A DNA stretch of 64,000 nucleotides from Hypomesus transpacificus (Eukaryota > Chordata > Actinopteri > Osmeriformes > Osmeridae): contig NC_061065.1 in the NCBI RefSeq assembly GCF_021917145.1, positions 8,372,666-8,436,665 of the forward strand. Reading direction: 5' to 3'. The translations under genes and the position numbers were made by a program. The first letter of the stretch is position 1, and each line of letters begins with the position of its first letter. Below the pieces are notes generated by a model. That model was not told the origin of the DNA and made no database searches. It worked only from the letters and a program-made list of their open reading frames with translations. Shown here one piece after another: positions 60,301-63,300 of the stretch.

Positions 60301-63300
60301 GACATGGATCAACCTCCAACCAAGGGACTGGGAGAGACTGAGGGAGGGATGGGATTGACGGACGGATGGACGTATTGACTAATGAATTGGCCGAGGGAGA
60401 AAGAGGAGATGAAAGGGAGGGAGGGAGGAGTGGAGGAGGAATGCCTGGAGGAATCGACAGAACGGAGACAGAGTGCAGACATTGGAGGACAGTGTGGCTC
60501 GACTTCTCAGCACAGCTGAAGAGAGGAGATAGGAGGAAGGTAGTGGGGAACAGGGTGGAAGGAAAGGACAGGTAGATGGCCGTCAGGAACGGGTGCAGCA
60601 GGTGCACTGCAGGGTTTCACCTCAGGTTCTCGGAGCTGAACTCAGACTCGAGGAACTTGAGGAACTGGTCTCGGCCTGCAGGGTCCTTCAGAGCCTCGTC
60701 CAGAGAGAAGCCCCACTTCCTGACACGCTGCTGACTGGGGTCCTTACTGGAAAGAGAGAGAGAGAGAGACCGAGACAGAGAGAGAGAAGAGGAGAGAGAA
60801 AGAGAGAGAGACAGAGAGAGAGAGAGACAGAGAGTAAATTTATCACAATTTATATATGTTCAACCTTATATGGCTTTGGCAACAATGCTCACTCATTCAT
60901 GCCAATAAAGCCTTATTGAATTGAGAGAGAATGAGAGACAATGAGAGAGAGATTGAGACATAAATACAGAGAGAGACAGAGAGAGGTTGATACATAAATA
61001 CAGAGAGAAACAGACACAGAGAGAGACAGAGAGAGGTTGATACATAAATACAGAGAGAGACAGAGACAGAGAGAGACAGAGAGAGGTTGATACATAAATA
61101 CAGAGAGAGACAGAGACAGAGAGAGACAGAGAGAGGTTGATACATAAATACAGAGAGAGACAGAGACAGACAGAGAGAGGTTGATACATAAATACAGAAA
61201 GAGACAGACACAGAGAGAGACAGACACAGAGAGAGACAGAGACAGAGAGAGACAGACACAGAGAGAGACAGAGACAGAGAGAGACAGAGAGAGACAGAGA
61301 CAGAGAGAGACAGAGAGAGACAGAGAGAGACAGAGACAGAGAGAGGTTGATACATAAATACAGAGAGAGACAGACAGAGAGAGACAGAGAGAGGTTGATA
61401 CATAAATACAGAGAGAGACAGAGAGAGACAGAGACAGAGAGAGGTTGATACATAAATACAGAGAGAAACAGACACAGAGAGAGACAGAGAGAGGTTGATA
61501 CATAAATACAGAGAGAGACAGAGACAGAGAGAGACAGAGACAGAGAGAGACAGAGAGAGACAGAGAGAGACAGAGAGAGAGACAGAGAGAGAGAGAGACA
61601 GAGACAGAGAGAGACAGAGACAGAGAGAGACAGAGACAGAGAGAGACAGAGAGAGACAGAGACAGAGAGAGACAGAGAGAGACAGAGAGAGACAGAGACA
61701 GAGAGAGACAGAGAGAGAGAGAGACAGAGACAGAGAGAGACAGAGACAGAGAGAGACAGAGAGAGACAGAGAGAGACAGAGAGAGAGAGAGACAGAGACA
61801 GAGAGAGACAGAGACAGAGAGAGACAGAGAGAGACAGAGAGAGACAGAGACAGAGAGAGACAGAGACAGAGAGAGACAGAGAGAGACAGAGAGAGACAGA
61901 GACAGAGAGAGACAGAGAGAGAGAGAGACAGAGACAGAGAGAGACAGAGAGAGACAGAGACAGAGAGAGACAGAGAGAGAGAGAGACAGAGACAGAGAGA
62001 GACAGAGAGAGACAGAGACAGAGAGAGGTTGTGCAGAGCCTACCTGGCCTCCTGGTCCCAGGAGGAGCAGTCGTCGCTGACCCAGGGGTTAGAGGGCTCT
62101 GGGGCCGTCACAAACGGGTCATACTCCAGGTACTGCTCTGTGTAGGTCATCAGACTGACACACACAAATAGACAAACACATAGACAGACAACAGACAGAC
62201 AGACAGACAGACAGACAGACAGACAGACAGACAGACAGACAGACAGAGGAGAGAGTAGTATTGTTACTGCAGCTGACCCTCAGAATTCAGACTTCAGCCA
62301 TGAGCTGAGAACTAGGACCACTGCCCTGCCTCCAGCCCTGCCTCCAGCCCTGCCCCCAGCCCTGCCCCCAGCCCTGCCCCCAGCCCTGCCCCCAACGTCC
62401 CCAGCCAGCCTCCCAGCTCTGACCTCAGCCCTGACCCCAGCCCTAATTACTGCCTCCCTGCAGTGGAGTAACAAAGTCACTTCCACCTCATGCCCTCCTC
62501 CTCTGCTTCGGAGCATATCATGGGTCAGGGTGGGTGACTAAAAAGATGCTCTGACAGCGAGTCACAGGGTCATGCGTCAAGGCTCAGGGGAGGCAGAGGG
62601 GCAGTGGCCTCGCTTCAGACATAGACGCTATGGCAGAAAAGATGATCATAGGTCCGGCAGTCAAGGATACACTATTTTGCTTGAGCGTGTGGACGAGGAG
62701 GGAAGGGGTGTTTTTCTGTGTGTTAGACAGAGAGAGAGACATAGAGGGAGAGAGAAAGACAGACAGGAGAGAGAGGGATGTGGGAGGAAGTCAAGGATAC
62801 ACTATTTTGCGTGAGCGTGTGGGTGAGGTGGAAAGGGAGACACAGAAAGAGAGAGAGAGAGAGAGAGAGAGAGAGAGAGAGAGAGAGAGAGAGAGAGAGA
62901 GAGAGAGAGAGAGAGAGAGAGAGAGAGAAAGAAAGAGAAGAGAAAGAGAAAGAGAAAGGAGAAAGAGAAAGAGAAAGAGAAAGAGAAAGAGAAGAGAAAG
63001 AGAAGAGAAAGAGAAGAGAGAGAGAGAGAGAGAGAGAGAGAGAGAGAGAGAGAGAAGAGAGAGAGAGAGAGAGAGAGAGAGAGAGAGAGAGAGAGAGAGA
63101 GAGAGGAGAGGGAGGGATGTGGCAGGAAGAGACACAGATAAAGAGAAGAGAAAGAGAGAGTGAAAGGATGTCTGTACGCTGGTGATATACATATAGAGCA
63201 AGGTTTTACGCCTACCTTTCAGCAACTTTGGACATTTTCATACGGTGGTCTATCCAGCTGGGGTGTTTAGAAACAGAATCTGTAAAGGCAGAACAAGTGT

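Follow-up and report, generated by a model that had tools for sequence, protein, structure and literature searches.

Does the rgs6 gene of Hypomesus transpacificus carry a broken GGL exon, or is the assembled sequence itself at fault? The question is raised by a stretch of 64,000 nt (contig NC_061065.1, positions 8,372,666 to 8,436,665, referred to here as the window), in which the exon encoding the GGL segment is two bases longer than its neighbours allow.

The rgs6 gene and the reading frame of its GGL exon

Judged from its sequence, the end of the window is the 3' part of the rgs6 gene, which is read from the minus strand. Similarity to human RGS6 and RGS7, together with the splice sites, places ten exons here, while the DEP domain exons of the N-terminus would fall past the window end at 64000. 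The exons are as follows:

63843..63924, minus strand: exon A, intact
63627..63701, minus strand: exon B, intact
63383..63481, minus strand: exon C, intact, ending in phase 0 and containing an intact five-C run
63216..63279, minus strand: exon D (the GGL exon), 64 nt, frame broken by two additional C
62044..62154, minus strand: exon E, 111 nt or 37 codons, intact, in-frame skip possible
60621..60746, minus strand: exon F, intact
58545..58731, minus strand: exon G (RGS domain), intact
58096..58185, minus strand: exon H, intact
57834..57887, minus strand: optional C-terminal exon encoding an 18-residue peptide, intact
57345..57395, minus strand: last coding exon including the stop, intact

The frame that contains exon G has the RGS domain (Pfam RGS, E 8.6e-13). 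Compared with RGS6 and RGS7, the last exon matches only the former (82%), and the optional exon is conserved in this fish, its peptide differing at 1 of 18 positions from that of mammalian exon 18 as printed in PMC8805202; for these two reasons the gene is assigned to RGS6 and not to RGS7. Exon order, phases, RGS domain, the optional 18-residue exon and the RGS6-type C-terminus are all as in the R7 RGS proteins RGS6 and RGS7, the difference being a GGL exon of 64 nt and not 62. A scan with an exon G pattern of viral and prokaryotic contig collections gave 25 and 74 matches, respectively, and no relative, as expected. Among the neighbouring genes, vps18 and dcaf4 were named through Pfam, and dpf3 and rhov through sequence queries.

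The initial annotation had placed the GGL exon of rgs6 at 63216..63279, and both the gene and the exon are borne out, with canonical AG and GT borders on the minus strand (tttacag before the exon, gtaggc after it). Exon C ends in phase 0 (GAG followed by gtatcg) and exon E starts with the T that completes AG to a serine codon, so the length of exon D must be 2 mod 3, i.e. 62 nt, and the excess of two bases claimed at the outset is real in the assembled sequence. A frameshift-tolerant alignment of the GGL segment to exon D reads ILFLNT, an extra C, QLDR, a second extra C and then the KMSKVAES part. The two sites are:

63260..63263, minus strand: first insertion site, reading CCCC in gene orientation, one C above what the frame allows
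63247..63248, minus strand: second insertion site, reading CC in gene orientation, one C above what the frame allows

Against the human RGS6 GGL segment, allowing two +1 steps gives a score of 58, compared with 41 without a shift, and none of 1000 base shuffles reaches 58, the best giving 28; the two +1 steps proposed earlier are thereby upheld. With the RGS7 segment the corresponding scores are 55 and 44 (best shuffle 28), and the best local alignment spans the second insertion only, so for the first insertion the evidence is the RGS6 comparison together with exon phase. The GGL segment of exon D is recognisable only over the two frame shifts, and a typed peptide bridging them matches RGS7 with E 8.6e-15. 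In an ungapped scan of both window strands, using the whole exon and its two halves as queries, no second intact copy of the exon was found among the six best matches per query.

As the sequence stands, a premature stop occupies nucleotides 28-30 of exon D, i.e. codon 10, within the GGL segment and upstream of the RGS domain. The predicted truncation ahead of the RGS domain is therefore correct, while its placement ahead of the G-beta-5-binding part is slightly loose, the stop being inside the GGL segment. From this stop to the D-E junction there are 34 nt, with more junctions further downstream, and decay of the mRNA is expected for a stop placed so.

Coding sequence and splicing around the GGL exon

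The remaining nine rgs6 exons, 875 nt in total, keep an open frame, matching phases and canonical splice sites; since none of them, nor any of their splice sites, carries a disabling change, the gene does not look like a decaying pseudogene. The indel check took in rgs6, dpf3, rhov and vps18. In the window's dpf3, rhov and vps18 coding sequence (about 3.2 kb) no frameshift was seen: each of the 9 dpf3 junctions (1092 nt of coding sequence) has one or more GT-AG solutions free of stops, the rhov stretch 5301-5747 (447 nt) matches in a single frame, and vps18 (about 1637 nt, with approximate edges and a junction judged by eye) has two open stretches. With the nine rgs6 exons, the coding sequence without a frameshift comes to about 4.05 kb over four genes, which does not support a poor assembly throughout the window.

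The position of exon D relative to repeats was also considered. The nearest tandem arrays lie 102 and 502 nt away, while exons A, E, F, G and H, all intact, lie each within 1-18 nt of an array; these distances do not support an adjoining array as the cause, although GA-rich sequence continues to about 63160. Similarly, the five-C runs of exons C and G are both intact. The chance that two randomly placed rgs6 hits fall within 18 nt in one exon is about 0.036; for two hits placed over all coding sequence examined, the chance of lying within 18 nt is about 0.009.

Splice combinations were enumerated over 19 GT or GC donors upstream, 12 acceptors and, downstream, 47 GT donors; introns had to reach 60 nt, and the middle exon was limited to 400 nt. 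Of the resulting combinations 48 are open, and none retains both native donors: for 0 of the 12 candidate acceptors is the frame restored with both kept. Four open combinations retain the native donor of exon C, with the conserved end of exon D lost or replaced, and 13 retain that of exon D, each requiring an upstream GC donor. The claim that no nearby canonical site restores the frame thus holds as tested.

A premature stop remains when any of D, E, D+E, C, C+D, B+C+D or D+E+F is skipped. The D-to-G skip is open, yet it removes exons F and G, and with them most of the RGS domain. Exon E, presumably the exon absent from human -GGL forms, can be skipped in frame, but such a transcript retains exon D and meets the same stop, whereas skipping exon D is out of frame at 62 nt and at 64 nt alike. 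The human RGS6 -GGL splice forms, as described in PMC8805202, are alike in that the same domain is altered and the corresponding event is available in frame here; they are unlike in that the skip retains the broken exon and brings no rescue. Escape by exon skipping or through a GGL-variant form, which had been allowed for at first, therefore fails, and rescue by alternative splicing is rejected for those combinations of the sites above that keep both native donors.

Explanations for the additional bases

The choice left open by the initial annotation, a real lesion or a consensus error, is still the relevant one. The explanation we favour, with a probability of about 0.68, is that the two additional C are false bases in the assembly consensus and that the true exon has 62 nt and is in frame; this figure and the ranking of the three alternatives are judgements, not computed values. 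Each false base would double a neighbouring C in the consensus, and reads would be expected to show a 62-nt exon. In favour of an error, exon D appears still to encode the conserved GGL segment apart from two bases, each change puts a C next to an existing C without compensating the other, and none of the other nine rgs6 exons is damaged. The rgs6 copy is then probably an ordinary, working fish gene. PMC8081667 gives short consensus-calling indels as the commonest errors of long-read contigs, causing frameshifts, and reports that unpolished stretches retained them. The present case resembles those vertebrate assemblies, as described there, in that single-base coding indels mimic frameshifts in an otherwise intact gene, and differs in that two fall in 62 nt here while the coding sequence seen elsewhere, about 4 kb, has none. 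Because that remainder is clean, a uniform error rate fails to account for the pair and the error reading needs a local cause; the low chance of the clustering (about 0.036, as above) likewise points to one. Against a simple error stand the 102 nt separating exon D from the nearest array, with five intact exons nearer to one, and the longer C runs that remain intact.

A real and recent loss-of-function allele is possible but clearly less probable. It could be a polymorphism, be confined to a strain, or mark the onset of damage in a duplicate copy that is redundant, with the mRNA degraded or the protein made without its RGS domain. The sequence reads so as it stands, the clean coding elsewhere in the window speaks for a good assembly, and the position of the stop agrees with the expected mRNA decay. 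However, a pair of hits only 15 nt apart, uncompensated and the sole damage seen, would require one double event or a duplicate of very recent origin; such clustering also sits awkwardly with a real lesion, unless one event made both bases or the copy is newly redundant. The single rgs6 of zebrafish, as given in PMC10605842, also counts against it. We regard it as rather unlikely that the 64-nt exon is both real and fixed in the fish, with a recent loss from rgs6 of G-beta-5 binding and RGS output, or with a non-canonical donor giving a changed GGL segment.

We consider it very improbable that a real 64-nt exon is saved by unusual splicing, in which, for example, a GC donor lying within exon C or downstream of it would let the third frame be read, giving a 21-residue peptide and an altered GGL start. 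This frame is open from end to end of exon D and the 13 GC-donor combinations join it in frame to exon E, but all of them require GC donors that look weak, most drop part of exon C, and the native GT donor of exon C is present. Least probable of all, to the point of being nearly negligible, are two +1 ribosomal frameshifts within a few codons: three frames matching the conserved peptide in turn would fit, but nothing marks the shift sites and we know of no vertebrate precedent for two +1 shifts so close together.

If the bases are false, as we favour, the locus is a warning that annotation would label rgs6 truncated or lost in Hypomesus transpacificus. If they are real, a fish naturally null for rgs6 would offer a way to study how an R7 RGS protein limits G-protein signalling.

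Other elements of the window

An open frame at 20207-20818 gives an ANCHR-like B-box match and is probably part of the zfyve1 gene. Minisatellite-like arrays occupy 27461-28120, 42431-43102 and 45508-46129, with periods of 20, 32 and about 33-40 nt; the latter two sit between matched dpf3 exons, and the last is rich in G runs. The Tc1-family end used as a query is absent from the window. The UnaL2 LINE 3' element (Rfam RF00436) ends three repeats (6622-6675, 29689-29742 and 52444-52497), which by their sequence look like a SINE family; two of them extend to longer copies (29577-29745 and 52332-52500) that share 90% identity over 169 nt.
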